Assembly: GCA_001664505.1 (NCBI GenBank)
Contig: CP011806.1
Span: 683,325 to 747,324 of the forward strand
Length of the DNA: 64,000 nt
Direction of reading: 5' to 3'
From: Acidobacteria bacterium Mor1
GTDB taxonomy: Bacteria; Acidobacteriota; Polarisedimenticolia; Polarisedimenticolales; Polarisedimenticolaceae
The notes beneath the pieces are model-generated. The model was not told the origin of the DNA. It was given only the letters and a program-made list of their open reading frames with translations, and did no database searches. Shown here piece after piece: positions 981 to 51,395 of this stretch (positions are counted from its first letter, which is position 1; every line of letters begins with the position of its first letter). A program made the translations under genes and the position numbers.

Positions 981-990
981 CGGGCGGCTC

Positions 991-6294: not shown

Positions 6295-6331
6295 TCGACG
6301 AACGTCGCCCGACTCTCCAGACGGAGCCCAC

Positions 6332-8368: not shown

Positions 8369-8972
8369 GCGTCGCGGGATCCTGCTCGCCTGCGCGGCCC
8401 TGTTGCTCCTGCCCCTGGGGGCGGGTTGCCCCGACCGTCGCCCGCTGCAGCTTCCACAGGCCGAGCCGGTGGAGATCGGGGTCTACAAGGCCCGGGTCAC
8501 CCGGGAGGACGGGCGCTCCCGTCGATTCCGGCTGCTGCTCTACGCCGAAGCACCGGACCGGCTCCACGCCGAGGCGGTGGCCCCCGTCGGCGGAACCCAG
8601 TTGATCGTCGACGGAAACGCCTCGAGGCTCTCCATCGCCCTGGTCCGGGACAAGCTGGCCTTCGCCGGGGAGCCGACCGGCTCCGACCTGGAGCGCATCG
8701 TCGGAAGCCCGGTGAGTCCGGCCGAGTTGGTTCGGGCGCTCCTCGAGGGCGCCCCGCCGTCAGACGCCGGCATCACCGTGGAACGGACCGGCGAAGGCGG
8801 GCTGCCCACGACCTTCAGCATCCGCTCAGGAGGACACCGCCTGGAGCTGGAGTTGCGCCGGACCGACCGCACCACGCCCAAGGGGGGACTGCTCGCCTCG
8901 GGGGAACCTCCCGACGGGTTCGAGACCTACCCGCTGTCCGATCTTGTCTGGGACTGGTTCGCTTCTGAGTAG
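8328..8972 (+). CDS. LolB-like outer-membrane lipoprotein
   Basis: A 214-residue predicted lipoprotein. The GTG start at 8328 is preceded by GGGGAG and gives a type II signal: arginines, a hydrophobic stretch (about residues 18-32) and the lipobox LGAGC. The mature part has alternating beta-strand patterns (YKARVTREDGRSRRFRLLLY, DRLHAEAVAPVGG) resembling LolB/DUF4292-type lipid-binding barrels. In Gram-negative bacteria LolB inserts lipoproteins into the outer membrane. It follows the TPR gene with a 41-nt overlap, the same order as TPR-lolB in Proteobacteria. The LolB identification rests on size, lipobox, strand pattern and synteny rather than a diagnostic motif. Confidence 0.65.
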   Translation: MPRRSASARFVPSRRRGILLACAALLLLPLGAGCPDRRPLQLPQAEPVEIGVYKARVTREDGRSRRFRLLLYAEAPDRLHAEAVAPVGGTQLIVDGNASRLSIALVRDKLAFAGEPTGSDLERIVGSPVSPAELVRALLEGAPPSDAGITVERTGEGGLPTTFSIRSGGHRLELELRRTDRTTPKGGLLASGEPPDGFETYPLSDLVWDWFASE

Positions 8973-9018
8973 CCTTCGTCCAGGTGTAAACCCGCCCGAT
9001 CGACCCCCCGCAAACCGA

Positions 9019-9047
9019 TTGACATCATGTGAAAAGGGTGTTAGCTT
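9019..9047 (+). promoter_or_regulatory. Sigma-70-type promoter for spoVG operon
   Basis: TTGACA at 9019-9024 (perfect -35), 17-nt spacer, TAGCTT at 9042-9047 (-10). It lies in the 208-nt gap between the lipoprotein and spoVG and would start a leader of about 125 nt that is G-rich and has no obvious terminator. Confidence 0.75.
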
Positions 9048-9180
9048 GGCGCCCGCCGGTTGGCATAAGTTCCGAGTATCAAAGGACTTCGGCTTACGAG
9101 GGCAGCCTGGGGAGGGGTGGCCCGAGAGGGGCACCCGGGGATGGCCGGGGGAGCCGAGCCTGGGGCAAGGTGGGCAAAAC

Positions 9181-9576
9181 ATGGACGTGACCCAAGTGAG
9201 GGTTTTTCCCGTCGAAGAGGAAAAGCTCAAGGCGTTCGTCTCGATCATCTTCGACGATTGCTTCGTCGTCAGCGATATCAAGATCATCCAGGGGGGGAGC
9301 GGGCTTTTCGTCTCGATGCCCAGCAAGAAACGCAAGAACGGGACCTTCAGGGATATCGCTCATCCCCTGAACAACGAGACGCGGCGCCGCATCGAGGCCA
9401 GCGTCATCGACAAGTACCGGGAGGTCATGGCCGACGAGGGGGTCGCCCTGGCCGAGTCCGAGCTGCGCGAGCTCCACGAGGAGGAGTCCGGGCACGCGCC
9501 GGCGGTGCACCCGACGGAGTACGGCATGGGTGCCGACGAGATGCCCGGGCGCCAAGAGAAAGACCTGCTGCGCTAG
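9181..9576 (+). CDS. spoVG: Septation/regulatory protein SpoVG
   Basis: SpoVG is a small nucleic-acid-binding regulator found in Firmicutes, Spirochaetes and several Gram-negative phyla. Residues 1-85 match the family: an N-terminal TQVRVFPVEEEKLKAFVSI strand, FVVSDIKIIQG, then FVSMPSKK and the DIAHPLN motif. At 131 residues it is longer than the usual 90-100; the extra C-terminal part is charged and rich in Glu and His. The ATG at 9181 has an AAGGTGG site upstream. It is first gene behind a strong promoter and is followed by prs, matching the spoVG-prs-ctc order known from other bacteria. Confidence 0.95.
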   Translation: MDVTQVRVFPVEEEKLKAFVSIIFDDCFVVSDIKIIQGGSGLFVSMPSKKRKNGTFRDIAHPLNNETRRRIEASVIDKYREVMADEGVALAESELRELHEEESGHAPAVHPTEYGMGADEMPGRQEKDLLR

Positions 9577-9618
9577 ATCACCCCTAGCGCCCGAGGGCCG
9601 CGACCGGTAAGTTCTCCC

Positions 9619-9635
9619 GGCACCGACTCGGTGCC
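9619..9635 (+). other. Small hairpin between spoVG and prs
   Basis: A perfect inverted repeat GGCACC-GACTC-GGTGCC lies 27 nt upstream of the prs start. There is no T-run directly after it, so it is more likely an mRNA processing or partial-termination hairpin than a full terminator. Confidence 0.4.
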
Positions 9636-9661
9636 GAACATCGCTTTAACCGGAAATCATC

Positions 9662-10603
9662 ATGAAGAGCGAACTGAAGGTCTTCTCCGGCAACGGAAAT
9701 CCGCGCCTGGCCGAGGCGATCTGCCGCTACCTGCGCCTGCCCCTCGGGCAGTGGAAACTCAGTCAGTTCAAGGACGGCGAGGTCTACTGCCAGATCCTGG
9801 AGAATGTGCGGGGGACCGACGTCTTCGTGATCCAGCCGACCTGCCCGCCGGTCAATGAAGCCCTGATGGAGCTGTTGATCGCCGTCGACGCGTTGAAGCG
9901 CTCTTCGGCGGCCCGGATCACGGCGGTCATTCCCTACTACGGCTACGCCCGGCAGGACCGGAAGGACAAGCCGCGGGTTCCGATTTCGGCCAAGCTCGTG
10001 GCCGATCTGCTCCAGGCGGCCGGGGTCAACCGCGTGCTGGCGATGGACCTCCACGCGCCGGCGATCCAGGGGTTCTTCGACGTTCCGGTGGACCACCTGC
10101 TGGCCGCTCCGGTCATGCTGGAATGGATCGAACAACAACGGTACAAGAACCTGACCATCGTCTCGCCGGATGCCGGGGGCGTGGAGCGGGCCCGTTTCCA
10201 TGCAAAGCGGCTCGGCGCCGACCTGGCGATCATCGACAAACGCCGGATCGAGGCCAACGTGGCCGAGACGATGAACGTGATCGGTGAGGTCTCCGGCCGC
10301 ACCTGCGTGATCGTCGACGACCTGATCGACACCGCCGGAACCTTCGTCGGATCCATCGACGCTTTGAAGAAGAAGGGGGCCGAAGCGGTCCTGGGCTGTT
10401 TCAGCCACGCCGTGCTGTCCGGACCGGCCATGGAGCGTCTGGCGAAGGCCGACCTTGAAGTGATGGCCGTGACTGATACCATACCGCTGCCCGAGGACAA
10501 GGCTAGCTTCTCCAAAATCAAGGTGTTGTCCGTTGCGAACCTCCTCGGAGAGGCCATCGCCCGGATCCACAGCAGCTCCTCGGTCAGTTCGCTGTTCGTC
10601 TAG
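9662..10603 (+). CDS. prs: Ribose-phosphate pyrophosphokinase
   Basis: Makes phosphoribosyl pyrophosphate from ribose-5-phosphate and ATP for nucleotide, His and Trp synthesis. The 313-residue protein has all class I features: N-terminal FSGNGNPRLAEAI, the ATP-loop YYGYARQDRK, DLHAPAIQGFF, PDAGGVERA, and the PRPP-binding loop VIVDDLIDTAGT. The ATG at 9662 gives the normal length. It sits between spoVG and rplY, a widely conserved arrangement. Confidence 0.97.
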   Translation: MKSELKVFSGNGNPRLAEAICRYLRLPLGQWKLSQFKDGEVYCQILENVRGTDVFVIQPTCPPVNEALMELLIAVDALKRSSAARITAVIPYYGYARQDRKDKPRVPISAKLVADLLQAAGVNRVLAMDLHAPAIQGFFDVPVDHLLAAPVMLEWIEQQRYKNLTIVSPDAGGVERARFHAKRLGADLAIIDKRRIEANVAETMNVIGEVSGRTCVIVDDLIDTAGTFVGSIDALKKKGAEAVLGCFSHAVLSGPAMERLAKADLEVMAVTDTIPLPEDKASFSKIKVLSVANLLGEAIARIHSSSSVSSLFV

Positions 10604-10687
10604 CACCCAGGCCGGCACCGAAGGGATTGGCGCCGTTTCGAGGGTTTTACGGGGTCCGGGTCACAGGGATCCGGTGGGGTAGAAGGC

Positions 10688-11347
10688 ATGATCAAGGACA
10701 TCGTCGTCGAGGTAGAACGCCGCAGCGAGACGGGCAAGAACGCCTGTCGCCGGATGCGCGCACAGGGCATGGTTCCGGGGGTCGTCTACGGCCTCGACAG
10801 CGATCCGTTCCCGGTGGCCGTCAGCCCCCGCCGCATCTCTCAGGTGCTGCGCGAGGAAACCGGGCGCAACACCATCTTCAAGCTGCAGCTGGCCGATGAC
10901 ACCGCCCAGCAGCGCTCGGTCATGCTGAAGGAACTGCAGCGCGACCCGATTACCGAGGACCTGCTGCACGTCGACTTCGTGCGCCTCGACCTGTCCCAGT
11001 CGATCCAGGTCCAGGTTCCCATCGAGCTCGTCGGAACGCCCGTCGGCGTCCAGCTCGAAGGGGGCATTCTGGACTTCATCCACCGCTCGGTGCTGATCGA
11101 GTGCCTGCCGTCGGACATCCCGGAGAACGTCCCGGTCGACGTCAGCGGCCTGCACAACAACCAGAACGTCTCCGTCGGCGACCTCCAGGAATCGGACAAG
11201 TTCAAGGTCATGGAGACCTCCGACACGATCATCGCGGTCGTGTCTGCGCCGAAGGAAGAAGCGGTCGAGGAGACCGAAGGCGAAGAGGGCGCCGAGGCCG
11301 CCGATGCACCGGAGGCGGAAGCGAAGGAAGGCGGCGAGTCGAGCTAG
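10688..11347 (+). CDS. rplY: Large ribosomal subunit protein L25 (long CTC form)
   Basis: Binds 5S rRNA. The 219-residue protein has an N-terminal L25 domain (about 1-95, with GMVPGVVYG and LLHVDFVRLD) and a C-terminal TL5/CTC beta-barrel domain (about 96-185, including QLEGGILDFIHRSVLIECLP). The last 35 or so residues form an acidic Glu/Ala tail. The ATG at 10688 is preceded by a GGGGTAGAAGG region. It is followed after 57 nt by pth, as in many bacteria. Confidence 0.95.
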   Translation: MIKDIVVEVERRSETGKNACRRMRAQGMVPGVVYGLDSDPFPVAVSPRRISQVLREETGRNTIFKLQLADDTAQQRSVMLKELQRDPITEDLLHVDFVRLDLSQSIQVQVPIELVGTPVGVQLEGGILDFIHRSVLIECLPSDIPENVPVDVSGLHNNQNVSVGDLQESDKFKVMETSDTIIAVVSAPKEEAVEETEGEEGAEAADAPEAEAKEGGESS

Positions 11348-11404
11348 TCTCGGCCCGGCCCGCATCGCAGGCTTCCCCGAGGCAACCGAATCGAGGGGCC
11401 GCTC

Positions 11405-12073
11405 TTGCACATCGTCCTCGGCCTGGGCAATCCCGGCGAGCAGTACCGCAACACCCGGCACAACCTGGGCTTCCGCGTGGTGGATCGCCTCGCGGAGCGG
11501 AGTGGTGCGTCCATCGACCGGGCGCGGCGCCGTGACCTGGGAGGGCGCTGCTGGACCCTGGATGTGGTCATCGGAGACCAGCAGGTAGTCCTGGCCAAAC
11601 CCCAGACCTTCATGAACCGCTCGGGGATCGCCGCCGCGGCGCTCTGCCGTGACCGGGGAATCGATCCGGCGAACCTGCTCGTCGTGTACGACGATGCCGA
11701 TCTGGCTCTCGGCCGAATCCGCCTGCGTCCGGGAGGCGGCGCCGGAGGGCACAACGGCATCCGCTCCCTGATCGAGTTCCTGGGAGAGGGGGATTTCGGC
11801 CGGATCAAGCTGGGGGTGCGCGGCGCCGGGCGGGAGTCCATGTCCCTGGCGGACTACGTGCTCGAGGACTTCGAGCAAGAGGAACTGCCCCTGGTCGACC
11901 GCCTGATCGACCTCGGGGCCGATGCAACCTCCGCGGCCCTCGCTGACGGCATTCCCGACGCGATGAACCGGTTCAACGGCCGCTCCGCCCAAGATCCTGC
12001 CCCTGCCCCTCAGCCTGCCCCGGGCCCCGATTCCGGCCCCGGATCCGACACGAACCCCGGCGGGAATCGCTGA
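11405..12073 (+). CDS. pth: Peptidyl-tRNA hydrolase
   Basis: Releases peptides from prematurely dissociated peptidyl-tRNA. The TTG start at 11405 follows GAGGGG and gives the canonical opening HIVLGLGNPGEQYRNTRHNLGF containing the catalytic Asn and His; the catalytic Asp sits in VVYDDADLALG and the GGHNGIRSLI loop is intact. At 222 residues it is about 30 longer than usual because of a Pro/Gly/Asp tail from about residue 195, probably disordered. Downstream is a 148-nt leader before rpsF. Confidence 0.96.
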   Translation: MHIVLGLGNPGEQYRNTRHNLGFRVVDRLAERSGASIDRARRRDLGGRCWTLDVVIGDQQVVLAKPQTFMNRSGIAAAALCRDRGIDPANLLVVYDDADLALGRIRLRPGGGAGGHNGIRSLIEFLGEGDFGRIKLGVRGAGRESMSLADYVLEDFEQEELPLVDRLIDLGADATSAALADGIPDAMNRFNGRSAQDPAPAPQPAPGPDSGPGSDTNPGGNR

Positions 12074-12094
12074 ATTTGCCCTCGGCGGCCACCT

Positions 12095-12123
12095 TTGCGG
12101 GTTCGGCCGGAGGGTGATAGAGT
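12095..12123 (+). promoter_or_regulatory. Candidate promoter for rpsF-rpsR-rplI
   Basis: TTGCGG (12095-12100), 17-nt spacer, TAGAGT (12118-12123). Both boxes are imperfect, but transcription would begin just before the two hairpins in the rpsF leader. Confidence 0.4.
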
Positions 12124-12133
12124 TCAGCGTTTA

Positions 12134-12168
12134 CCGAAGCAATTCGGCACCCCTTGCTCCCGGCAAGG
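12134..12168 (+). promoter_or_regulatory. Structured rpsF leader, possible S6:S18 autoregulatory RNA
   Basis: Two consecutive hairpins: CCGAA-GCAA-TTCGG (12134-12147, a GNRA-type tetraloop) and CCTTGC-TCCCG-GCAAGG (12152-12168). In many bacteria the rpsF leader folds into a motif that binds the S6:S18 complex and represses the operon. Position and structure fit, but I cannot confirm the consensus. Confidence 0.45.
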
Positions 12169-12221
12169 CACCCAATTCATGGGATCCCGGCCCGGGGGCG
12201 GTTACGCCGTAAGAGGTGCAA

Positions 12222-12740
12222 ATGGTTACGTACGAGACGATTATCGTCACGGCGCCCGTCTTGACTGAAGACGACGAGCGCACGCTGGTCGATGGGTTCG
12301 CCGACATCGTTACCGATGGTGGCGGTACCTTCTTCGCCCGCGATCGCATGGGCCGCCGCCGGCTGGCCTATCCCATCCGCAAGTTCGATGACGGGGTCTA
12401 CACCCGCTTCCTCTACGACTCCGAGGCTGCCGTGCCGACGGAGCTCGAGCGCCGGGTCAAGCTGTCGGACAAGGTCCTGCGCTGGATGACGGTCAAGCTC
12501 GAGAAGCAGTGGGCCGAGGACGCCAAGAAGGAAGCCGAGCGCGAGGCTCAGGCGAAGATCGAAGCCGAAGCCAAGGCCGCCGAGGAGGCCGCCCAGGCTG
12601 AGGCCCAGGCCGAAGCGAAGGCCGCTGCCGCCGCCGAGGCCGGCGAAACCGCCGAGGGCGCTGCCGAAGCCGAGGAAAGCCCCGCCGCAACCGAGGCCGC
12701 CGAAGCCTCCGACGTCGAGAAGGAGTCCAACGATGGCTAA
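12222..12740 (+). CDS. rpsF: Small ribosomal subunit protein S6 with long Ala/Glu tail
   Basis: S6 pairs with S18 on the 30S platform. Residues 1-95 carry the S6 fold ([34 protein letters not shown]). The rest, to residue 172, is a coiled-coil/low-complexity Ala-Glu-Lys tail, longer than in most bacteria. The ATG at 12222 is chosen over an upstream in-frame GTG because AAGAGGTG sits three bases before it. The last 8 nt overlap the rpsR start, suggesting translational coupling. Confidence 0.95.
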
Positions 12741-13020
12741 CGGAATGGGTGGACGTGGTGGTGGCGGTGGTCGCCGCGGGGGAGGCGGCGGTGGACGCCG
12801 TCGGTTCCTCTTTCGGCGCCGCAAGTACTGCAAGTTCTGCGAAGCCAAGGTGACCTACATCGACTACAAGGACCTCAAGACCCTCCAGAACTACACTCCG
12901 GAGCGGTCCAAGGTGCTTCCGCGCCGTATTTCCGGCACCTGCGCCATGCATCAGCGTGAGCTCGTCCGCGCCGTGAAGCGCGCGCGGATGATCGCCCTCC
13001 TGCCGTTCAGCAGCGATTGA
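12733..13020 (+). CDS. rpsR: Small ribosomal subunit protein S18
   Basis: Ninety-five residues. The core (about residues 28-90) is canonical: [21 protein letters not shown] and [24 protein letters not shown]. The CKFC pair plus the later Cys and His suggest the zinc-binding form. The N-terminus is an unusual run of Gly and Arg (about residues 5-27), which may be disordered and RNA-binding. The start overlaps the end of rpsF by 8 nt. Confidence 0.96.
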
Positions 13021-13032
13021 TCGAGGTTCGTG

Positions 13033-13512
13033 ATGAAAGTCGTACTGCGCGAGAACGTCGAGAAACTCGGGAGCCGCGGTGACGTCGTCAGCGTCGCCAA
13101 CGGTTACGCCCGCAACTACCTGCTTCCGCGAGGTCTGGCTCTCGAGGCCACCAGCGGGAACCTGAAGACCATCGAGAGCCAACGCCGCTCCTGGGCCGTC
13201 AAGGAGGCCAAGGAGGCCGAGGAAGCCCGCGCCATGGCGGCTCGCCTCGCCGAGGTCGAGGTGACCATCTCCAAGCGTGCCGGCGAGAACGACACGCTCT
13301 ACGGCTCGGTCACCAGCAGTGAGATCGCCGAGGTGCTGGCCGAAAAGGGTGTCGCGATCGATCGCCGCAAGCTGCAGCTGGCGGAACCGATCAAGGCCCT
13401 CGGTACCGTCGAGGTGCCGCTCAAGCTGCACCCCGAGGTCACCGGGACCATCAAGGTCAACGTGGTGCCCGAACAGATCCAGGCTTCCGAACAGGCTTCT
13501 GAAGAAGCGTAA
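13033..13512 (+). CDS. rplI: Large ribosomal subunit protein L9
   Basis: Binds 23S rRNA domain V. The 159-residue protein has the N-terminal L9 domain (MKVVLRENVEKLGSRGDVV, GYARNYLLPRGLA), a connecting helix and the C-terminal domain with TLYGSVTSSEIAE. The ATG at 13033 has GAGGTT upstream; an in-frame GTG three bases earlier is the alternative. It lies 12 nt after rpsR in the usual rpsF-rpsR-rplI order. Confidence 0.96.
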   Translation: MKVVLRENVEKLGSRGDVVSVANGYARNYLLPRGLALEATSGNLKTIESQRRSWAVKEAKEAEEARAMAARLAEVEVTISKRAGENDTLYGSVTSSEIAEVLAEKGVAIDRRKLQLAEPIKALGTVEVPLKLHPEVTGTIKVNVVPEQIQASEQASEEA

Positions 13513-39031: not shown

Positions 39032-40027
39032 GTGGCGAAAACCGCCAAGCGCAAGGTCGCGGCAAAGAAGAAGGCCGCCAAGAAAACCACCAAGAAAGCC
39101 GCCCCCAAGAAGACGGTAAAGAAGAAGGCTGCGTCCAAGAAGGCCACCAAGAAGGCAGCGCCCAAGAAGGCCGCCGCCAAGAAGGTAGCCAAGAAGAAAG
39201 TAGCCAAGAAGAAGGCGGCCCCGAAGAAGGCGGCCAAGAAGGTCGCGAAGAAGGCGCCTGCGAAAAAAGCCGCCGCCAAGAAAGCGACTGCAAAGGTAGC
39301 CAAGAAGGCCGCCCCCAAGAAGGTCGACAAGAAGGCCACCAAGAAGGTCGTCAAGAAGACGGCGGCCAAGGCCGCCCCGGCCCCGAAGAATCCGGCCCCG
39401 AAGAAGAAGGCGACGCCTGCTTCGACCAAACCGGCTCCGAAAAAAACTGCAACCAAGTCGAAGGCGACCGAACCGTCGGCCAAGAAGCCGAAGGCGAAGA
39501 AGCCCGTCAAGAGAAGGCCGCTGACATCCCAGATGAAGCACTACGAGGAGTTGCTGCTCCAGAAACAGCGGGAGCTGACCCAGGCGTATCACGCCTCCAA
39601 GGGTGACACCCGAGCACGGCTCGACGACGGAACCGAGGATTACATCGACTACGCGGTCAGTTCCTACGCGAGGGAGTTCCTGCTCTCGCTGAGCGAGCTC
39701 GATCGCGAACAACTCCGCCTGGTCGACGACGCCCTCAAGCGTTTGCGGCGAGGGGACTTCGGCATTTGCCGCCCCTGCGGGGAACCGATTGCCGAGAAGC
39801 GTCTCGAAGTCGCTCCCTGGGCACCGTACTGTATACAGTGTCAATCCCTCGACGAGCAGGGCCTGTTGAGCGATTCGCCGGCGGCACGCCAGTCCGACGA
39901 CGATGACGATATCGACGACGACTCGACAGAGGCAGATGCGGAGGACGAGGGGGACGAGGACTCCTACGCCGATGCCGACGATGACATCGAGGACGACGAC
40001 TCGCTGGACGATGACGACGACGACTGA
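39032..40027 (+). CDS. Histone H1-like / DksA-TraR zinc finger / acidic-tail fusion protein
   Basis: A 331-residue three-part protein. Residues 1-167 are a Lys/Ala/Pro repeat (KKAAPKK, AKKVAKK) like eukaryotic H1 C-tails and bacterial Hc1-like proteins, expected to bind DNA non-specifically. Residues about 168-275 form a DksA/TraR domain: a coiled coil whose tip reads D203-Y-I-D206-Y-A208 (the DxxDxA of DksA) and a zinc finger C246-x2-C249-x17-C267-x2-C270. Residues about 279-331 are almost entirely Asp/Glu. DksA inserts its coiled coil into the RNA polymerase secondary channel and cooperates with ppGpp. The GTG start at 39032 has TGGAGG upstream and a strong promoter. The oppositely charged ends could interact. 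Confidence 0.92.
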   Translation: MAKTAKRKVAAKKKAAKKTTKKAAPKKTVKKKAASKKATKKAAPKKAAAKKVAKKKVAKKKAAPKKAAKKVAKKAPAKKAAAKKATAKVAKKAAPKKVDKKATKKVVKKTAAKAAPAPKNPAPKKKATPASTKPAPKKTATKSKATEPSAKKPKAKKPVKRRPLTSQMKHYEELLLQKQRELTQAYHASKGDTRARLDDGTEDYIDYAVSSYAREFLLSLSELDREQLRLVDDALKRLRRGDFGICRPCGEPIAEKRLEVAPWAPYCIQCQSLDEQGLLSDSPAARQSDDDDDIDDDSTEADAEDEGDEDSYADADDDIEDDDSLDDDDDD

Positions 40028-40088: not shown

Positions 40089-43000
40089 ATGAGTACGCCC
40101 CCGACGCCACAGGCGCCAAAGCGGCCCAAAGGGCCCGGAGCAAAACGCCCCCGCACCGGGCGGGCGCGGCGGTTGTTGCGTCGGCTGCTCTGGGGGGTCG
40201 CCGCGCTCCTGGTCGTTTGCCTTACCTCCCTGTTTCTGCTCAGAGACCGCCTCGACGGGTGGGTCCGGGACCGCATCCAGCACGAGATCGAGCAGGCGCT
40301 GCCCGACGCCCGGGTCTCCCTGGACCGGGTCGACATCGGATTCTACGGTCCACGGCTGGACTTTCATGGTTTCTCGCTGGAGTTGGACGGCCTGCCTGAC
40401 CGGATCTCTTTCGAGAAGGCCAGGATCCGGCCCAAGCTGAGCGGTTTTGGCGGCCTGCTGGCGCGGCGCATCCACCTCTCCGAGGTGACGATCCAACGAC
40501 CGGACGTCGTACTCACGGCCGAGGGCCTCGCGCGTCTGGGAGCGGGACCCTCCGAGGAGGGGAGCGAGCCCGCCGAGTTTCCCGATCTCAGGATTCGCCG
40601 CTTTGACGTGAGCCAGGGGGCCTTCACCTATGAAGACAGGAGCATCCCGCTCACCCTGGAACTGACGGACCTGGACCTGGATGCCCGGGGTCGGGTTCTG
40701 GCCGACGGCGGGCGGGGTGGCGTGCGCCTCTCGGCGACGGTGCTCCACAGCCCTATCGAGCGCCCGCTCCCGCTGAAGATCCGGGCCGAGCTCAACTACA
40801 GCGGCCAGCGCCTCCAGCTCAGCGGCCTCCACGCCGAGGGGGACGGGGTGCGGCTGGACGGCAACGCCGTACTGTTCCTCAGCGACCCGTTCCGGGTGCG
40901 TGGCGAAACCCAGGTGCAGGCGGACCTTGCGACCATCGCTCCCGTACTGGATGAAGCCTGGCGGGATCTGCGGGGACGGGTCGAGGGCCCGTTGAGTTGG
41001 TCCTATGCCGATGGTGAAGGCTTCCGGCTCGACGGAGAGCTGGTCGGTCAGCGGGTTCGCTACGGCGACCTCAGCGCCTCACGCCTCTCGACCCGTCTGG
41101 AAATCACACCCGGCCGCCTGCGTTTCGGCGAACTGGATCTCGACGCCTGGGACGGCTCCGTTCGGGGAGAACTGGAGCTGGCTCTCGACGGCCCGATCCG
41201 CTTCGAGGCGGACGTCGAGGGCCGGGGGCTCGATGCCCACAGCCTGGGGAGCCTGGCCGGCCTGCCGTTGCCCTTCGCCGCCCGGGCCGATGCCGTAGCC
41301 CGGCTGTCCGGCCTCGTCGACCGGAGGAGCACCTGGCGGGGTGGAGGCAGCGCGACCTTCCAGGGGGACCCGGACGATGCGCAGCCGATCCCACTGGACG
41401 GCGCTGGCGATTTCACCATCGTCGACGGAGTGCTGAGCGCCTCCGCGCCGGCGGTGCAGGCGGCGGGTGCTGCTCTCAGCTTCGGTCTCGAGGCGGATCT
41501 CGGCGGTGACGGCCGAGGCTGGGTCGAACTGGACGGCGAGACCAGCAACGCAGCCTCGACCCACCGGGCGACCCTGGCGGTACTCGAATCCCTGGATGTG
41601 GAAATCCCCGCCGACCTTCGCCGGCCGATCACCGGCCGCGGCCCGCTGGACGTGCGGGTGGGCTTCGGCGGCGAGCCGGACGCCGGCGGTGGCCGGGTCG
41701 ACCTCGGTCTCGAGTTCACGGCCGGCAGCCTGGACGGAACCGCCTTCGACCGGCTCTCACTGGATCTGGCCCTGGCCGGAGATCAACTCAAGATCGAGTC
41801 ACTCGACGCCGAGGCGCCGGACTGGCAGCTCCGGGGCGCGCTCTCCTACGACCTCTCCAACGATACGATCGAGCGGCTCGAAGGGGAGGCCGAGGAGGTC
41901 CAGCTTCCGGTCCTGCTGGGATTGATCCCCGAGGCGCCCGCGGTCGAGGGCACCCTCAGCGGCTCGTTGCTGCTTGCGGGCCCGTTGAACCGTCTGACCG
42001 GCGAGGGCCGGGTGGCGATTTCCGAGCTGCGCTGGGAGGGGGAGTACCTCGAACGCCTCGAGTCTCCGGTGCGGGTGCTCGATGGCGCCTGGACTCTCCC
42101 TGAGCTCACCGCCGCCGGACCTGCGATCCGCCTGGGCGGACAGGTGGCCTTCGCTCCCGACGGAGACCGGATCGAGATCGAGTTACGGGACACGTCGCTG
42201 CAGCTCGACGCCCTGAGCGCCCTCCAGGGTGCGGGGGTCGAAGGAACGTTGGATCTCGACGGCCGCCTGCAATTATCGGGGGGGAGCTCCACGGGAGAGA
42301 TCGGCGTCGAGGCGCGCGGCCTGATCGCCTCGGGGATCGATCTCGGCTCCGCCAGCGGCGTCATCCGCCCGGAGAGCGAGCGGGTCGTGGCCGAGCTCAA
42401 CGCACCCCGCCGCAGCGCCCGCGCCCAGGCCACCCTCGGCCTGGGAAGCGACCTGCCCCTGGAGGTCCAGGTGCAGCTGGACGGCAGCGACTTCGATCTG
42501 ATCGACCAGGATGGCTACGGCGGAGCCTGGGTCCGGCTCGACGGCGAACTGCGCTACGCCGCGGCACTCGGAGAGACCCGCCCGGCGGACCTGGCCGGCG
42601 TGTTCAGCGGTATCGAGCTCCACCTCGGCAGCCGTGTCTTGCGCAGCGGCGAACCCTGCCAGGCCCACCTGGACGGCGACCGCCTCTCGGTGGGTCCGAT
42701 GCGGCTCGAGGGGGACGGGACCGCCCTGGAGCTGGCGCTGCTCTACGAGTTCGGTAGCGCGGCCCTCGATGGTTACGGCCGTGGAAACCTCGACCTCGGG
42801 GCGGCGGCGGCGCTGGTTCCCGAGCTGCGCGCCGCAGGTCCCGTCGATGTGGATCTGCGCCTGAGCGGAACCGGAGAGGCGCCGAGACTCGACGGGTCCC
42901 TATCGCTCGAAGGGGGCAGGCTGCGGCTCCTCGGCTTCCCGCACACCCTCGAGCAAACCAGCGCCCGCATCGAGTTCGGAGGGGACACCGCGCGCCTCGA

Positions 43001-46000
43001 GCGGCTGGAAGGCATCCTCGGCAGCGGTGAAGTCACCGGGAGCGGCGAGGCGCGCCTGGAGGGCCTCGCCCTGGGTGACCACCGTTTCGAGCTCAGCGCC
43101 CGCTCGCTGCGGATCCGCTTCCCCGACGAGTTTCGCGGCATCTATGACGGCGAGTTGGTCCTGGGCGGCGACGCCGATCAGTCGACCCTGTCGGGAACCG
43201 TCAACGTGCTGCGAGGGATCTACAGCCAGGACTTCGAACTCTTCTCGCTCCTCGGGGTCGGAACCCGGGAGGTCGCGGCCAGCGATGAAGGATTGCTGCC
43301 CGACGTGGGCCTCGATATCCGGCTGGTGGCGCGAGACGGCATCTGGATGAAGAACGATCTGGCCGACGTCGAGTCCCGCTTCGACCTGCGGCTCGGCGGC
43401 GACCTGAACCGGCCCGAGCTGTCAGGCCGCCTGACCCTGCTCGAGGGTGGGGAGCTGCGTTTCCGGGATGTCGACTACACCATCACCTCGGGCAGTCTCG
43501 ACTTCGTCGAACTGGACAGCTGGCTGCCCGAGATCGAGATGCGCGCAGAGACGACCGTCCGCGAATACGCCGTCTTCCTGCGCATCTCCGGGACCGTCGA
43601 TCAGTTCGAGTACGAGTTGACCAGCTCACCGGATCTTTCTCAGCAGGACATCATCGCGCTGCTGACCACCGGAAAGACCATGCAGGAGTTGAGCGCCGAG
43701 TCGGGAGGTTCCGGCTTCACCGGCGATCTCGCCGCCAACTACTTCGCCGGTGCGCTGACCGGCACGTTCAGCAAACAGCTGCAGCGCCTGCTTGCCGTCG
43801 AGCGCCTGCGCATCGACCCGCTGCTGGCCCAGGAAGACGCCGAGCCGACCGCCCGGGTCACCATCGGAAAGGAGGTCGCCGACGACCTGTTCCTGATCTA
43901 TTCCACCGACATCGGTGCCGAGGAACGCCAGCTCTATCAGGTGGAGTGGCAGGCCTCGCGCAAGATGCGCGTGATCGCCGAGCGGGACGTCACCGGCGCG
44001 CTGGGAGGGGACGTGCGCTTCCGGGAGCGCTTCTGGTGGAAGCGCCCTGCCTCCGCACCCCGAGCAAAGAAGAAGTCCGGCGCGTCCGAAGCCGGCGCCG
44101 ACGGCAAAGAGACGGTGCAGGTCGCCTCGGTACGGTTCGAGGGCATCGGCGACGATGCGGCCGCCGAGCTGCGCAAGAAGCTGTCGATCGCCCGCGGCAC
44201 CCCTTACCGCCGCTCGGTGGCCATCGAAGGCGCCGAGGCAATCCGGCGCTACTACGCCGGGCAGGCGCGTATCGAGGCGGAGGTCGGCTGGCGGACCGAG
44301 GGGCCGGAGGACCGGCCGACGGTGGTCTACAGCATCGTGCCCGGGCGGGTGACCGAGGTCGTGCTGGCCGGCATCGACCGCAAGCATGAGAAGCGCATCC
44401 GCGAACTGCTCGAGGATCACTGGGTCGAATCGATCATCGGCGAGGACCTGCTCGACGATGCGGCGGAGATCATCCGGGACTACTTCCAGGAGCGCGGCTT
44501 CTACACCGTCGACGTCTCGGTCGACGAGACCCTGGACGACGGCCTGCATCGGGTCGAGTTCGTGATCGATACCGGCAAGACCGTGCGCATCCGGTCGGTC
44601 GAGATCGAGGGCGCCGAGGCCATCGACGAGGACCGGCTGCGCCGCCAGTTCCTTACCGGCCGCCGCACCCTGTTGCAGCGCTCGGCGATCCTGCCCCGGG
44701 TGTTGCGGGAGGACCTGGCCGCGCTGCGCACCCTGTACCGCAACGAGGGCTTTCTCGAGGTCCTGATCGACCAGCCGCGGGTGCGGCTCTCGGCGGAAGC
44801 GGACCGGGCCGACGTGACCATCCGCATCGAGGAAGGACCGCGGTTCTACATCAGGACCCTCGAGTTCGAGAACCCCGACGGGGAGCTGCCCTACAGCCGC
44901 GCAGAGCTTCTCGAGTGGTCCGGACTGGCGACCGGGAAGGTCTACTCTCCGCCGGAACTGCTCGAGGCCGAGAGCCGCCTACGCAGCGCTCTCGACAGCC
45001 GCGGCTATCCGACTGCCCGGGCACGGGGCCGGGTCGAACTGGGCGAGGCGGAGGCGCGCATTCGCTTCACCATCCGCCCCGGACAACAGCTGCGCATCCA
45101 GGAAGTCGCCCTGCGCGGCAACGACCTGACCAAGGACCGGATCATCAAGGGGGAACTCGAGCTCGAAGAGGGGGATCTGATTTCCCGGGACACCTTGCTG
45201 CGCAACCAACACCGTCTCTATCGCCTGGGGATCTTCCGCAGCGTCGACGTGGGCTACGAACCGGTCGACGGGGGAGAGCCGGGTCAACAGCGGGTGGTCG
45301 TCGACATCGAGGAGGCCCAGCCGCTGAGCCTGACCGTCGGTGCCGGTTTCGACAGCGAAGCCGGCCTGCGGGGCAATCTGGCCCTCAGTCACGACAACAT
45401 CGGCGGATGGGATCGCACCGCCGGTTTCCAGGCCAGCGTCAGTGACCTGCAGCGCCGCGGACAGGTCACCTTCGGCGAGCCCAGGCTGTTCGGCTTCGAT
45501 CTGCCGACCGTCGTCAGTCTCGGCCAATCGGATACCGAGGAGAACGACTTCACCGTCAAACGCCGCTCGGTCGGTGTCCGCATCGACCACCGGCTGTCGC
45601 CACGCTGGAACGCCTTCGGCCGCTACGCCTTCCAGCGAGTCGACCTACGAGACGTCGTCGATCCGCTCCGCGTGCAGGAAGAGAAGCTCGAAGATGTGGT
45701 GCTCGGGGACGTGAGTTACGGTCTGCTGCTCGACAGCCGGGACGATCCGTTCCTGCCGACCCAGGGACAGTACGCCACCATGGAGGTGCAGCTCTTCGCC
45801 GAACCCTTCGGCTCGGAGCAGGAGTTCCTCAAGGGCTTCTTCCAGAACACCTACACCCACACCTTCGGCAACGGGCACACCTTCGCCACCGCGATCCGCG
45901 TCGGCTTCGCCCGGCGGCTCGGGGCCACCACCCGGGTGCCGCTCTCCGAGCGTTTCTTCGCCGGGGGAGATTCCACCCTGCGCGGCTTCGACCGCGATAC

Positions 46001-46295
46001 CGTCGGTCCGCGGATCGGCGACGTCGCCGCCGGCGGCGAGGGGTTGCTGCTGCTCAACCAGGAGTGGCGCGTTCCGCTGTGGGGCCGCCTCAAGGGCGTG
46101 CTGTTCTACGACGCCGGCAACGTGTTCGACCGAGCAGGAGATATCGACCCCTTCGACCTGCGGCACGTGCTGGGCCTGGGGGTGCGTCTCGAGACGCCGA
46201 TCGGACCGCTGCGCCTCGAATACGGCAGCAAGCTCGACCGGGTAGGCGACGAGTCCCGGGGAGAGCTCTTCATCGCCATCGGATCGGCGTTCTAG
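40089..46295 (+). CDS. TamB (DUF490) - five POTRA - Omp85/BamA barrel single-chain fusion
   Basis: A 2068-residue protein. Residues 1-30 are basic, followed by one inner-membrane helix (about 32-53). Residues 54 to about 1095 are repetitive beta-rich AsmA/TamB-type segments. About 1097-1317 is the TamB C-terminal (DUF490) domain, with TSSPDLSQQDIIALLTTGKT and the ending RFWWKRP. A 25-residue Lys/Ala linker leads to five POTRA domains (starting near 1343, 1420, 1498, 1586 and 1668) and an Omp85 barrel from 1746 with the L6 signature LRGF at 1964 and a terminal Phe. In Proteobacteria TamA and TamB are separate proteins linking outer and inner membranes. The reading frame is continuous through the junction (about 44030-44115), with no stop or frameshift. 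Five POTRAs resemble BamA; TamA has three. The ATG at 40089 has only a weak ribosome site. Confidence 0.93.
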   Translation: MSTPPTPQAPKRPKGPGAKRPRTGRARRLLRRLLWGVAALLVVCLTSLFLLRDRLDGWVRDRIQHEIEQALPDARVSLDRVDIGFYGPRLDFHGFSLELDGLPDRISFEKARIRPKLSGFGGLLARRIHLSEVTIQRPDVVLTAEGLARLGAGPSEEGSEPAEFPDLRIRRFDVSQGAFTYEDRSIPLTLELTDLDLDARGRVLADGGRGGVRLSATVLHSPIERPLPLKIRAELNYSGQRLQLSGLHAEGDGVRLDGNAVLFLSDPFRVRGETQVQADLATIAPVLDEAWRDLRGRVEGPLSWSYADGEGFRLDGELVGQRVRYGDLSASRLSTRLEITPGRLRFGELDLDAWDGSVRGELELALDGPIRFEADVEGRGLDAHSLGSLAGLPLPFAARADAVARLSGLVDRRSTWRGGGSATFQGDPDDAQPIPLDGAGDFTIVDGVLSASAPAVQAAGAALSFGLEADLGGDGRGWVELDGETSNAASTHRATLAVLESLDVEIPADLRRPITGRGPLDVRVGFGGEPDAGGGRVDLGLEFTAGSLDGTAFDRLSLDLALAGDQLKIESLDAEAPDWQLRGALSYDLSNDTIERLEGEAEEVQLPVLLGLIPEAPAVEGTLSGSLLLAGPLNRLTGEGRVAISELRWEGEYLERLESPVRVLDGAWTLPELTAAGPAIRLGGQVAFAPDGDRIEIELRDTSLQLDALSALQGAGVEGTLDLDGRLQLSGGSSTGEIGVEARGLIASGIDLGSASGVIRPESERVVAELNAPRRSARAQATLGLGSDLPLEVQVQLDGSDFDLIDQDGYGGAWVRLDGELRYAAALGETRPADLAGVFSGIELHLGSRVLRSGEPCQAHLDGDRLSVGPMRLEGDGTALELALLYEFGSAALDGYGRGNLDLGAAAALVPELRAAGPVDVDLRLSGTGEAPRLDGSLSLEGGRLRLLGFPHTLEQTSARIEFGGDTARLERLEGILGSGEVTGSGEARLEGLALGDHRFELSARSLRIRFPDEFRGIYDGELVLGGDADQSTLSGTVNVLRGIYSQDFELFSLLGVGTREVAASDEGLLPDVGLDIRLVARDGIWMKNDLADVESRFDLRLGGDLNRPELSGRLTLLEGGELRFRDVDYTITSGSLDFVELDSWLPEIEMRAETTVREYAVFLRISGTVDQFEYELTSSPDLSQQDIIALLTTGKTMQELSAESGGSGFTGDLAANYFAGALTGTFSKQLQRLLAVERLRIDPLLAQEDAEPTARVTIGKEVADDLFLIYSTDIGAEERQLYQVEWQASRKMRVIAERDVTGALGGDVRFRERFWWKRPASAPRAKKKSGASEAGADGKETVQVASVRFEGIGDDAAAELRKKLSIARGTPYRRSVAIEGAEAIRRYYAGQARIEAEVGWRTEGPEDRPTVVYSIVPGRVTEVVLAGIDRKHEKRIRELLEDHWVESIIGEDLLDDAAEIIRDYFQERGFYTVDVSVDETLDDGLHRVEFVIDTGKTVRIRSVEIEGAEAIDEDRLRRQFLTGRRTLLQRSAILPRVLREDLAALRTLYRNEGFLEVLIDQPRVRLSAEADRADVTIRIEEGPRFYIRTLEFENPDGELPYSRAELLEWSGLATGKVYSPPELLEAESRLRSALDSRGYPTARARGRVELGEAEARIRFTIRPGQQLRIQEVALRGNDLTKDRIIKGELELEEGDLISRDTLLRNQHRLYRLGIFRSVDVGYEPVDGGEPGQQRVVVDIEEAQPLSLTVGAGFDSEAGLRGNLALSHDNIGGWDRTAGFQASVSDLQRRGQVTFGEPRLFGFDLPTVVSLGQSDTEENDFTVKRRSVGVRIDHRLSPRWNAFGRYAFQRVDLRDVVDPLRVQEEKLEDVVLGDVSYGLLLDSRDDPFLPTQGQYATMEVQLFAEPFGSEQEFLKGFFQNTYTHTFGNGHTFATAIRVGFARRLGATTRVPLSERFFAGGDSTLRGFDRDTVGPRIGDVAAGGEGLLLLNQEWRVPLWGRLKGVLFYDAGNVFDRAGDIDPFDLRHVLGLGVRLETPIGPLRLEYGSKLDRVGDESRGELFIAIGSAF

Positions 46296-47141: not shown

Positions 47142-49007
47142 TTGGGTCGAATCAAGCGCCTCGACGATCACCTGATCAACCGGATAGCCGCGGGGGAGGT
47201 TGTCGAGCGGCCTGCCTCGGTGCTCAAGGAGCTGGTCGAGAACAGTCTCGACTCCGGGGCGCGCTTCATCGACATCGTCGTACAGAGCGGCGGCAAGCGG
47301 TCGATTCGTATCGACGATGACGGTTGCGGCATGGAGGCGGACGATGCCCGTCTGGCCCTCGAGCGACACGCCACCAGCAAGCTCCGCACACCCGAAGATC
47401 TGGACGCCATCCGCACCCTCGGGTTTCGCGGTGAGGCCTTGCCCAGTATCGCGGCGGTCTCCTGCTTCACTCTCAGCACCGCCACCGAAGATGGCGCCGG
47501 CACCGAGATTCGAGTAGAGGGTGGGGACATCGTCGAGACCACCGAGGTCGGTCGGCCACGCGGAACCACCGTGCGCGTCGAACGATTGTTCTTCAACGTG
47601 CCGGCGCGACGGAAGTTCCTCAAGGCGGACGCCACCGAGCTGTCCCACATCGTGCGCCATGTCACGCGCTTCGCCCTGGTCAACCCGACGGTCCGCTTCC
47701 GTCTGGCCAGCAAGAACAAGACCCTGCTCGACGCCCCGGCCGCCAACGATCTGCTGGAACGCATCGGCCAGATTTACGGCGAGGCCTTCGTCGAGAAACT
47801 GTTGCCCTTTGAAGCCTCGGCCACCGATCGCTCGATCCAGGGCTTCGCCGGCCGACCGGCAGAGACCCTGCCGCGCCGGGACATGCAGCACGTGTTCGTC
47901 AACGGCCGCGCCGTTCAGGACCGGGTGCTGATGCATGCCCTGCGGCAAGCCTACGGCAACACCATGCCGCGGGACCGGCATCCGGCGATGTTCCTGTTCA
48001 TCGACCTCGACCCTGCGCTGGTTGATGTCAATGTCCACCCGCAGAAGAGCGAAGTCCGTTTCCGGGATTCCGGAGAGATGCACCGCACCGTGCGGGAGGC
48101 GATCGGCTCCGCACTTTCCCAGGAGCGGGCCGTGCCTGAGCTTTCCGATCTGCGACCCCAGGCCGGGCTGCCCGAAGTGGGTCGCGGAACAGGGGCCGCC
48201 GGGGCGGGGCCGCTTGCGGCGCACCGAAGCGGCGTCGGCGAAGCCCTTGCCGGCTACACCGCCCGTGTGCCCCTGGACGGGTCAGCCATGGACCGGTCAG
48301 CCATGGACCGGTCAGCCATGGACCGGCCGCCGATGGGCGGCGCCCCCGCGAGACAGGCTCCGGGAGCGCCACCCGGATCCGAGTTGCCCTGGCCGACCTC
48401 TCCGGCGCCGGCGCCGGAGATGCTTCGAGAGGGATCGGCCAAGGTGATCGGCCAGTACCTGGACGCCTACATCGTGGCCCAGGATGACCGGGGCCTGCTG
48501 GTGCTCGATCAACACGCGGCCCATGAGCGGGTGCTGTTCGAAAAGTTCCTGGATGCCGCCGACCGGGGCGAGGTTGAGATCCAACGGCTGGCCTTCCCGA
48601 TCACCCTCGAACTGACCCGGGAGGAGACTCTACTGCTCGAGGGAGAGCAGGAGGAGTTCCGCCGGCTGGGCTTCCTGATCGAGCCCTTCGGCGCGACCAC
48701 CTGGCGCATCGACGGCATCCCCGCGGTTACCGGGGAGCTCGATCCCGGATCGCTGCTGCGGGAGCTGATCGGCGATGCCGCCCAGGTGCGGAGCGCCGCT
48801 TCGGACGTGGCGGTACTGCGCCGCCGGCTGGTGACCAACGCCGCCTGCCAGGCTGCGATCAAGATCAACCACCGGCTGACCCGGGAGGGGATGCAGAAGC
48901 TGGTCGATGACCTCTACGGCCTGCGCAGCCCCACGACCTGTCCTCACGGGCGGCCGCTGATCTTCCGGGTCGCCCGGGAGCAGATCATGCGGGCCTTCGA
49001 TCGCTGA
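47142..49007 (+). CDS. mutL: DNA mismatch repair protein MutL (endonuclease type)
   Basis: The 621-residue protein has a GHKL ATPase domain (LVENSLDSGA, IDDDGCGM, TLGFRGEALPSI) and a C-terminal domain with the endonuclease metal motif DQHAAHERVLFE starting at residue 456, plus NAACQAAIK and CPHGRP (from 600). Possession of this motif means it nicks DNA itself, as expected where MutH is absent. A disordered linker (about 340-430) contains MDRSA repeats. The TTG start at 47142 has GGAG upstream and gives the normal GRIKRLDDHLINRIAAGEV opening. mutS is not in the window. Confidence 0.96.
   Translation: MGRIKRLDDHLINRIAAGEVVERPASVLKELVENSLDSGARFIDIVVQSGGKRSIRIDDDGCGMEADDARLALERHATSKLRTPEDLDAIRTLGFRGEALPSIAAVSCFTLSTATEDGAGTEIRVEGGDIVETTEVGRPRGTTVRVERLFFNVPARRKFLKADATELSHIVRHVTRFALVNPTVRFRLASKNKTLLDAPAANDLLERIGQIYGEAFVEKLLPFEASATDRSIQGFAGRPAETLPRRDMQHVFVNGRAVQDRVLMHALRQAYGNTMPRDRHPAMFLFIDLDPALVDVNVHPQKSEVRFRDSGEMHRTVREAIGSALSQERAVPELSDLRPQAGLPEVGRGTGAAGAGPLAAHRSGVGEALAGYTARVPLDGSAMDRSAMDRSAMDRPPMGGAPARQAPGAPPGSELPWPTSPAPAPEMLREGSAKVIGQYLDAYIVAQDDRGLLVLDQHAAHERVLFEKFLDAADRGEVEIQRLAFPITLELTREETLLLEGEQEEFRRLGFLIEPFGATTWRIDGIPAVTGELDPGSLLRELIGDAAQVRSAASDVAVLRRRLVTNAACQAAIKINHRLTREGMQKLVDDLYGLRSPTTCPHGRPLIFRVAREQIMRAFDR
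48276..48326 (+). repeat. 15-bp tandem repeat in the mutL linker
   Basis: GACCGGTCAGCCATG-type unit repeated about 3.4 times, encoding Asp-Arg/Gly-Ser-Ala-Met. It stays in frame, so copy-number change would only alter linker length. Confidence 0.95.
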
Positions 49008-49054: not shown

Positions 49055-49765
49055 ATGCGTGTTTCCAACCGTTTGGTGCTCCAGGCCCTCGTCGTGGCCG
49101 CCTCCCTGGGGTTCGCCGCAGGGGGCGGGCTCATGGCGGATGACTGGGTCGAGTTCCACAACGGACGGATCCTGCGGGTCCAGGCCGCCGTTCTGGACGG
49201 TGCCACCCTGCACCTGGATCTCGGAGGGGGAGGCACCCTCAGCGTGCCGCTGGCCCGGGTCGCCCGGCTCGAGACCGTGATCGAGGACGAGCCCTCCGAG
49301 GCCGAGCCTGCCTCCGACCTCGCCGCGGCGGCCGGCTCCGACGAAGATCCGCCCCGATGGCGCCATATGGCCGGCGAATATGCGGATTTGATCGCGAAAA
49401 CCGCAAAAAAGCACAACCTGGACCCGATGCTGCTGGCCTCGGTGGCCCACGCCGAGTCCCGCTTCAACCCGTTGGCAATCTCCCACGCCAACGCCCGGGG
49501 CATGCTGCAGCTGATCCCCGCCACAGCCGAGCGATTCGGGGTCGAGGACGTGTTCGATCCCGAGCAAAACGTCGACGGCGGGGCTCGGTACCTGCGCTGG
49601 CTCCTCGACCGCTACGAGGGGGATACCGCCCTGGCGCTGGCGGCCTACAACGCCGGAGAGGGCGCCGTGGACCGCTATGACGGGGTTCCGCCCTATCGGG
49701 AGACCATCAAGTACGTCTCGGGGATCCTGGACAATCTCCTGGCCGAGGAGCTGCCCACCCGCTAA
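49055..49765 (+). CDS. Periplasmic lytic transglycosylase (SLT family)
   Basis: Cleaves the MurNAc-GlcNAc bond of peptidoglycan to give 1,6-anhydro ends. The 236-residue protein has a signal peptide (1-28), a small beta domain (about 30-70) and an SLT domain (about 103-225) with catalytic Glu 134 in HAESRFNPLAIS, ARGMLQLIPATAERFGV and AAYNAGEGAVDRYDGVPPYRET. No ribosome site is seen before the ATG; the promoter position indicates leaderless translation. Confidence 0.92.
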   Translation: MRVSNRLVLQALVVAASLGFAAGGGLMADDWVEFHNGRILRVQAAVLDGATLHLDLGGGGTLSVPLARVARLETVIEDEPSEAEPASDLAAAAGSDEDPPRWRHMAGEYADLIAKTAKKHNLDPMLLASVAHAESRFNPLAISHANARGMLQLIPATAERFGVEDVFDPEQNVDGGARYLRWLLDRYEGDTALALAAYNAGEGAVDRYDGVPPYRETIKYVSGILDNLLAEELPTR

Positions 49766-49836
49766 GCCCCCCACCGCCTTGGTCCGGCCGTGTCACCAGG
49801 CCTTCACCCGTCCCCGGCTCCCAGCTTCCCGGCCCT

Positions 49837-49878
49837 CCCCGTTGCCTCTTTCCGGCGCCCCGTTGCCTCTTTCCGGCG
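49837..49878 (+). repeat. 21-bp tandem duplication upstream of the DUF4388 gene
   Basis: CCCCGTTGCCTCTTTCCGGCG is present twice, identically and head to tail, in the 157-nt gap after the transglycosylase gene. Confidence 0.95.
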
Positions 49879-49922
49879 GAAGTCCTATGTATTGGCCCGG
49901 GAGTAGTCTCCAGGACGAGGGC

Positions 49923-51395
49923 ATGGAATCCAGTTTCAGTAGCCACACGCTCGCGGAAGTCTTTCGGGACCTCTACCGCGGAGAACAGTCGGGTGTCCTG
50001 CACCTGACCCGGGGCGACGTTGAAAAGCGCCTCTACTTCGACCGCGGGATGCTGGTCTATTCGGAGTCTCCGGTGGCCGAGGAAGACCTCGGGCGCCGGT
50101 TGGTCCACGAGGGCAAGATCTCCTCGGGCGCGCTCAACGAGGCGGAAGCCGCCATCAGTGAGAGCAAGGACCTGGCCCAGACCCTGATCAACCGGGGCCT
50201 GATCGGCAAGGAAGCGCTCTCCCATACCGTCCAGTTCATCGTCGAGCGCACCGTGCAGTCGGTCTTTCAGTGGGAAGGCGGCCAGGCACGCTTCAGCGAG
50301 GGCTGGTTCGCCCAGGACATCGTCGAGGGAGACATCCTCAGCACCTTCGAGTCGATCCTGCGCGGCGTCTCGCGGATGACCGACTTCGAGCCGGTAGGGG
50401 AGGCCCTCCGGGGCACCGCCAGCCGCCTGCGCTTGCGGGAGCAACTCCCCGTCCCGGTGGAGCGTCTCGCGCTCTCCCGGTCCAACGGGTACATCCTGTC
50501 CCGGATCGACGGGGCGTCGACGGTGCGGGACATCCTCTCGCTGCTGGAGCCTCACGAAGAAGATCAGGCGATGCGTTTCCTGTACGGCCTCTTGGTCATG
50601 GGCGTACTGGAATGCGAGCCGCCTGTGAGTGAGGGGCCGTTCAAGATCACCGACCTGTTGCGGGATCACGCCGACAGCGTGGCCCTCGAGACCCAGCAGG
50701 AGAAGATGATCGAGGCGACCTATCACCGCATCCAGGGGCTCAATCACTATCAGCTGCTGGACGTGACCCCCGAGGCCACCCGCCAGGAGATCGAGCGGGC
50801 CTACGAGGACGCGAAGCGCCCCTTCAGCCGGGATCGAATCACCCCGAAGGTGCGGGAGAAGCTGCGGAGCCAGCTGGCGGTCGTGGAGAGCCGGCTGGTC
50901 GAGGCGTTCCTGACCCTGAGCAACTCCGATTCGTCCCGCCAGAGCAGCCAGGAGGCGGACGACGAGGTCCGCGGCGGCGACCTGTTGATGCGGGTCGAGG
51001 CGGACAAGACCGCCGGCGCCAAGGAGGCCGACGAGGCCAAGAAGGTCGCCGAGCAGTACTACCTGAAGGGGCGGAAGTTCCTGCGGGACGCCGACTACTA
51101 CAACGCGATCCAGTACGGGAAACTGGCGATTTCCTACTGCTCCGAGGACGCCCGCTTCTACTTCCTGCTGGCCGAGTGCCAGACCCGCAACCCGGATGCC
51201 CGCTGGCAGCGGATGGCCGAGAAGAACTTCTGCAAGGCCACCGAGCTCGACCCCTGGAACCCGGACTACTGGCTGAATCTGGGCCGGTTCTACAAGCACC
51301 GGGGGCTAACCCTGAGGGCCCGCAAGCAGTTCGAGGAAGTGCTGAAGATCGCCCCGTCCCACGAGGAGGCGGTCTCGGAGCTCAAGGCGCTCTGA
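49923..51395 (+). CDS. DUF4388 - degenerate J-like - TPR protein
   Basis: A 490-residue soluble protein. Residues about 1-100 form a DUF4388 domain (HTLAEVFRDLYRGEQSGVLHLTRG, KRLYFDRGMLVYSES), a family common in Myxococcota and Acidobacteriota and often in signalling proteins. A winged-helix-like middle part (about 175-235) leads to a J-domain-like segment (NHYQLLDVTPEATRQEIERAYEDAKRPF) lacking the HPD tripeptide needed to stimulate DnaK, then Ala/Lys linker and C-terminal TPRs (about 370-490). ATG 49923 is chosen because GGACGAGG precedes it; an in-frame ATG at 49887 is the alternative. Function unknown. Confidence 0.8.
   Translation: MESSFSSHTLAEVFRDLYRGEQSGVLHLTRGDVEKRLYFDRGMLVYSESPVAEEDLGRRLVHEGKISSGALNEAEAAISESKDLAQTLINRGLIGKEALSHTVQFIVERTVQSVFQWEGGQARFSEGWFAQDIVEGDILSTFESILRGVSRMTDFEPVGEALRGTASRLRLREQLPVPVERLALSRSNGYILSRIDGASTVRDILSLLEPHEEDQAMRFLYGLLVMGVLECEPPVSEGPFKITDLLRDHADSVALETQQEKMIEATYHRIQGLNHYQLLDVTPEATRQEIERAYEDAKRPFSRDRITPKVREKLRSQLAVVESRLVEAFLTLSNSDSSRQSSQEADDEVRGGDLLMRVEADKTAGAKEADEAKKVAEQYYLKGRKFLRDADYYNAIQYGKLAISYCSEDARFYFLLAECQTRNPDARWQRMAEKNFCKATELDPWNPDYWLNLGRFYKHRGLTLRARKQFEEVLKIAPSHEEAVSELKAL

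Follow-up and report, generated by a model that had tools for sequence, protein, structure and literature searches.

Can the translocation and assembly module (TAM), which in Proteobacteria is made of two proteins, TamA and TamB, also be built as a single polypeptide? The question is raised by a gene at 40089-46295 on the + strand of a 64,000-nucleotide stretch of the Acidobacteria bacterium Mor1 genome (contig CP011806.1, positions 683,325 to 747,324; hereafter the window), in which a tamB-like and an omp85-like part are joined in a single unbroken frame of 2068 residues, running from ATG to TAG. We think that the product is probably a TAM that occurs naturally as one chain: a bridge for phospholipids, in which the TamB end is able to pair with the barrel of the same molecule.

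The chain opens with a basic N-terminus and a predicted inner-membrane signal-anchor helix (residues 29-55; 40173-40253, + strand, as are all parts of the gene), which is the sole strong hydrophobic segment of the 2068 residues by hydropathy, falls in a modelled helix at 31-70 and agrees with the N-terminal anchor of the TamB family; neither a lipobox nor an Ala-X-Ala cleavage motif was seen at this helix. It is followed by the N-terminal and middle beta-strand rod of TamB (residues 74-977; 40308-43019), a modelled row of strands with one hydrophobic face which draws weak Pfam matches to DUF748/YhdP, and then by the TamB/DUF490 C-terminal domain (residues 978-1315; 43020-44033), which matches PF04357 at 131.5 bits (cut-off 22.4). 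The final strand of this domain, GGDVRFRERF, ends at about F1315, with RFWWKRP at 1314-1320 but, unlike the norm of the PF04357 family, it does not close the protein: 753 residues come after. A linker (residues 1316-1343; 44034-44117) leads to five POTRA domains (about 1344-1420, 1421-1498, 1499-1583, 1584-1664 and 1665-1748; 44118-45332), seen as five PF07244 stretches by Pfam (131.5 bits, cut-off 21.3) and in our own genome scan, and the last domain is an Omp85 outer-membrane barrel (residues 1749-2068; 45333-46292) with a PF01103 match at 1770-2066 (148.8 bits, cut-off 24), LRGF at 1964-1967 and a C-terminal Phe. The protein thus carries a barrel domain plus at least one POTRA, the composition that marks the Omp85 superfamily. 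A preliminary description of this DNA had proposed just such an arrangement, with TamB-like character over the N-terminal 1300 residues, five POTRAs (the number in BamA rather than the three of TamA) and an LRGF-bearing barrel ending in Phe, all in one frame; the frame and the Pfam domains, far above their cut-offs, bear it out. The natural reading of an N-terminal anchor and a C-terminal barrel, on the predicted topology, is a covalent bridge from inner to outer membrane.

That the fusion is a frameshift, a stop-loss or an assembly error at about 44040-44110 was a concern already voiced in the preliminary description, and it gains some colour from relatives which have two genes, with stops near the junction point. 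We surveyed the Acidobacteriota, taking 41 genomes of the window's class and a sample of 297 genomes of the phylum. The junction frame is unbroken in 29 of the 41 class genomes, of which 28 cover the 389-position junction model completely and one is cut by a contig end, and an intact fusion occurs outside the class in at least 38 genomes of at least 16 families; overall, the same open frame is found in no fewer than 67 genomes from 27 or more families. Because the frame is open in so many genomes of the class and of other families, we reject an assembly error, and an artefact of any of these kinds has a practically negligible probability. The junction, moreover, has no residual signal peptide, its linker spacing is conserved, and the GC content at third codon positions (0.82-0.94) shows no break there or elsewhere along the gene. 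TamB, POTRA and barrel share one frame in fetched examples from many outside families. No clear separate tamB-omp85 pair was seen in the 41 class genomes, most of the non-fusion genomes being fragmentary or without a match. A scan of named genomes with the full window protein gave no match, and with a four-row alignment it gave three named relatives, including Candidatus Polarisedimenticola svalbardensis and an uncultured acidobacterium. Two apparently deviating copies were set aside: a 'split' copy in genome G029 (locus L187) is sister to a fused copy and has its stop beside unresolved bases, so it is probably a sequence error, and what looked like a short paralogue in G037 (L185), with the TamB end and an Omp85, is due to a scaffold gap of Ns. 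A second fusion in genome G044 (L183, G044:C185:1-4500, 3-3158 +) has its barrel nearly directly after TamB, with at most one POTRA-like stretch between them (633-708 by our own HMM, none by Pfam), on a contig that starts inside the frame.

The linker had been described as rich in Lys and Ala, which holds for the window protein, although its size needed correction: it is about 28 residues long there and 13-32 (median 17.5) in 48 fusions. It is unconserved, with a mean majority-residue fraction of 0.18 against 0.40-0.54 in the flanking domains (class alignment), lacks any hydrophobic stretch and, by hydropathy, contains no signal peptide at the place where a separate Omp85 would carry one. The final TamB strand and its conservation are kept in the fusion, even though that strand is no longer C-terminal.

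To which known family does the fusion belong? On the NCBIfam profiles it scores 53.5 bits for TamB (NF047952 ATportTamB), below the equivalog cut-off of 825, and 128.3 bits for TamA (NF047950), below the cut-off of 625; on the BamA profile TIGR03303 it reaches 340.9 bits, above the cut-off of 297.15, and public annotation may therefore label it BamA. The canonical BamA of the same genome scores 461.5 bits on TIGR03303. The BamA-like number of POTRAs proposed earlier is borne out, and this profile points the same way, but descent does not. In a tree of Omp85 proteins (all of our trees are quick trees without bootstraps), the canonical BamA clade of 31 rows and a TamB-associated clade of 72 rows are each supported by an SH-aLRT (Shimodaira-Hasegawa-like approximate likelihood ratio test) value of 99, and the window fusion falls within the latter, together with fused and unfused forms, apart from the canonical BamA of the phylum. 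E. coli TamA attaches to the TamB-associated side (support 85) by a very long branch. By sequence, then, we regard the fusion as a TAM by its parts: it is not a member of TamA, because it has five POTRA stretches instead of three and fails the TamA equivalog cut-off, nor, because of its place in the tree, an orthologue of canonical BamA.

Elsewhere in the phylum, tamB and omp85 are separate, neighbouring genes, with omp85 downstream of tamB in 15 of 20 fetched pairs and upstream in the other five; the separate TamB stops just after its last strand (for example ...GFDVRYTKRF), where the linker of the fusion begins. Three genomes (G176, G180 and G197) each have two fusions, and several (G115, G129, G192, G257, G131 and others) have a fusion and a separate tamB-omp85 pair, which suggests that two TAM-like systems run side by side in the same cell. 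One TamB-associated Omp85 of the phylum that is not fused (L104, 8516-11671 +) has six Pfam POTRA stretches as against five in the window fusion, so it is conceivable that fusion may have gone with the loss of distal POTRAs.

Both halves show co-inheritance, as the tree of the TamB half recovers the same fusion groups as the Omp85 tree. When the halves are joined, 48 of the 49 sampled fusions form one weakly supported clade (support 80), made up of the window's class (support 99) and a second group (support 100), while the L121 fusion (family f20; G048:C5:122000-139000, 6279-13133 -) sits among unfused pairs. A single origin of all 49 fusions is rejected by the approximately unbiased (AU) test on the joined halves (p 0.0001), but not by the TamB half alone (AU p 0.32); the point at which the split clade attaches differs between the Omp85-half and TamB-half trees, and the single-half trees leave the sister relation of the two big fusion clades undecided; gain is not told apart from loss. 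The joined tree suggests a single old fusion and, besides it, one or more that arose independently. Two f72 fusions (G277:C95 and G265:C20, with frames of 2239 and 2245 residues) may share a second lineage with L121.

How might such a chain work? We propose that the N-terminal helix would stay in the inner membrane, that the TamB beta rod would span the periplasm, its continuous hydrophobic groove carrying phospholipids outward, and that the POTRA arm and the Omp85 barrel would hold the other end in the outer membrane. There the last TamB strand would pair with the first barrel strand of the same molecule to form a hybrid barrel, opening a lateral gate through which lipids, and possibly barrel substrates, would enter the outer membrane. 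What we say of insertion in both membranes, lipid flow and the cis hybrid barrel is inference from the homologous TamAB of E. coli, and the topology is predicted. In E. coli, cryo-EM and cross-links have shown TamB strand 6 paired with TamA strand 1 (T267-E1258, E269-Q1256) in about half of particles (PMC12800296). From the order of these contacts we infer that the two strands run antiparallel and that the TamB C-terminus lies on the periplasmic side; if the same holds for the fusion, topology would permit a linker between that point and POTRA1.

Structure models bear on this scheme. In the model of the N-terminal half (mean pLDDT, the predicted local distance difference test score, 58) the helix is followed by 64 strands over residues 74-1139, and hydrophobic alternation along the strands is 2.82 as against 1.56 in shuffles, none of 2000 shuffles reaching it. 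Fold comparison of this same low-confidence model matched the bridge-like lipid transfer protein LPD-3 (Z 11.8, root-mean-square deviation 5.9, model residues 33-356) and the N-terminus of Vps13 (Z 7.2), so that, as modelled, the start of the rod (its first 350 residues) looks like the mouth of proteins of this bridge-like kind. This fits the Chorein-N lipid-transfer domain reported at the TamB N-terminus (PMC6791001). Solved TamB and TamA structures were absent from the matches to this query, itself a model of low quality. For residues 985-2068, AlphaFold2 was run on a four-sequence alignment only; POTRA1-5 were modelled with pLDDT mostly 62-84 in blocks around 1345-1740, POTRA3 being weaker.

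Several points weigh against the bridge as we describe it. With its four sequences, AlphaFold2 gave no usable barrel or TamB C-terminus (mean pLDDT 40.7), so that the cis hybrid barrel is not seen in the model. ApoB, an unrelated lipid-binding protein, is also among the top fold matches, which therefore speak for a shared arrangement and not for function. A linker of 13-17 residues spans at most about 45-60 angstrom and may be too short to connect the lateral gate with POTRA1 when the arm has five POTRAs, unless the arm curls up or the hybrid barrel forms between neighbouring molecules and not within a single one.

The rest of the genome bears on what the fusion may do. It is a single contig of 5.985 Mb, 99.98% complete, assigned to the family of Candidatus Polarisedimenticola in the Acidobacteriota. 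A profile search found PF04357 once in this genome, in the fusion, and no YhdP above cut-off; below cut-off, AsmA, YhdP and DUF748 matched the fusion itself, one 747-residue frame and, in a short and weak match, a 320-residue frame. By these profiles, which could miss remote relatives, the fusion is the only long TamB/YhdP-type candidate in the genome. The canonical BamA is encoded away from it, in a bamA-skp-lpxD-fabZ-lpxA cluster.

A different view would make the fusion mainly an outer membrane protein (OMP) assembly machine, in which the TamB rod guards unfolded barrels and passes them to a fused BamA-like insertase, lipid transfer being minor. The five POTRAs and the BamA profile score would suit such a role, as would the assembly of OMPs that E. 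coli TAM is reported to catalyse in vitro (PMC11341756) and the binding of Borrelia TamB to BamA (PMC13382580). However, the genome has its canonical BamA elsewhere, with its own gene cluster and in its own clade; the modelled N-terminus of the fusion resembles the mouths of lipid bridges; and no other long AsmA-family candidate for a lipid bridge lies above cut-off in the genome. We consider this view unlikely. We give still less credence to the fusion being a polyprotein, cut in the linker after export to release a separate TamB and a five-POTRA Omp85, so that the joining would do no more than fix their stoichiometry; an exposed, unconserved linker, Lys/Ala-rich in the window protein, could serve as such a site, but it holds neither a conserved cleavage motif nor an internal signal peptide, and its length is kept at 13-32 residues across two deep fusion clades, more than a cut site needs.

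Returning to the single-chain phospholipid bridge, its closest relation in parts is the Proteobacterial TAM (PMC12800296), with which it shares an anchored TamB rod with a DUF490 end, a 1:1 Omp85 partner and the retained last TamB strand; it differs in being one chain in place of two proteins, in having five POTRAs where TamA has three, and in scoring far below the TamA and TamB equivalog cut-offs. In Acidobacteria, a second 'BamA' has been described as the likely source from which the TAM arose, with operons noted (Heinz et al. 2015, PMC4494059); the fused Omp85, from the same phylum, falls in the TamB-associated group, but the genes in that report are operon neighbours only, and the words 'fusion' and 'fused' are absent from it. 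The hybrid BAM-TAM of Borrelia (PMC13382580) likewise has a five-POTRA BamA working with TamB, and a barrel completed by TamB is predicted; its components, however, are separate proteins, and its BamA is canonical and the only one. The long MlaD of Veillonella parvula (PMC10665443) has, in one chain, a helix in the inner membrane and at its C-terminus a barrel in the outer membrane, and is a proposed lipid bridge; among functional precedents for a chain seated in both membranes it comes closest. It belongs to an unrelated family, with MCE domains, a helical middle, a 10-strand barrel, a hexameric state and the opposite proposed direction. Omp85 proteins with WD40-like domains, reminiscent of a BamA-BamB fusion (PMC4104836), also join a barrel and a partner domain in one chain, but the partner is WD40 and there is neither an inner-membrane anchor nor a TamB rod. 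We found no published description of a TamB-Omp85 fusion in the open-licence literature, an absence which is not proof of novelty.

The fusion bears on two matters not yet settled: the route of phospholipids to the outer membrane, and whether a TamB-type protein forms a stable bridge or a transient contact. When the two parts are naturally covalent, their stoichiometry is fixed, the partner is known and the topology is narrowed down, as the TamB end must lie within short-linker reach of POTRA1. It also supports the partnership of TamB with the second Omp85 in Acidobacteria, proposed from gene neighbourhood in 2015, and offers a one-gene system for structural work and for tests of hybrid-barrel models. 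A puzzle of biogenesis comes with it: the barrel would have to insert in the outer membrane while the N-terminus is anchored in the other membrane. More speculatively, and with less than even confidence, we suggest that in this class most phospholipid may travel to the outer membrane through one polypeptide embedded in both membranes, folded by the beta-barrel assembly machinery (BAM) while tethered to the inner membrane and using its own TamB end to close a hybrid barrel; taken together with a second fusion of independent origin, it would turn the partnership of TamB and Omp85 in Acidobacteriota into a direct (Rosetta-stone) inference.

Other proteins of the genome include two MlaD-domain proteins and, outside the window, two patatin-Omp85 (PlpD-like) proteins (L038 5518-8247 - and L040 3765-6098 -) and a 997-residue PD40 plus peptidase-MA protein with a weak match to the Omp85 barrel model (L039 2184-5174 +). 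Within the window, the fusion is preceded, 61 nucleotides upstream, by a gene for a DksA/TraR-type zinc-finger protein (39032-40027, +) and followed by mutL (47142-49007, +). Two genes downstream, at 49677-51395 (+), lies a gene for a 572-residue protein with DUF4388 and TPR domains.

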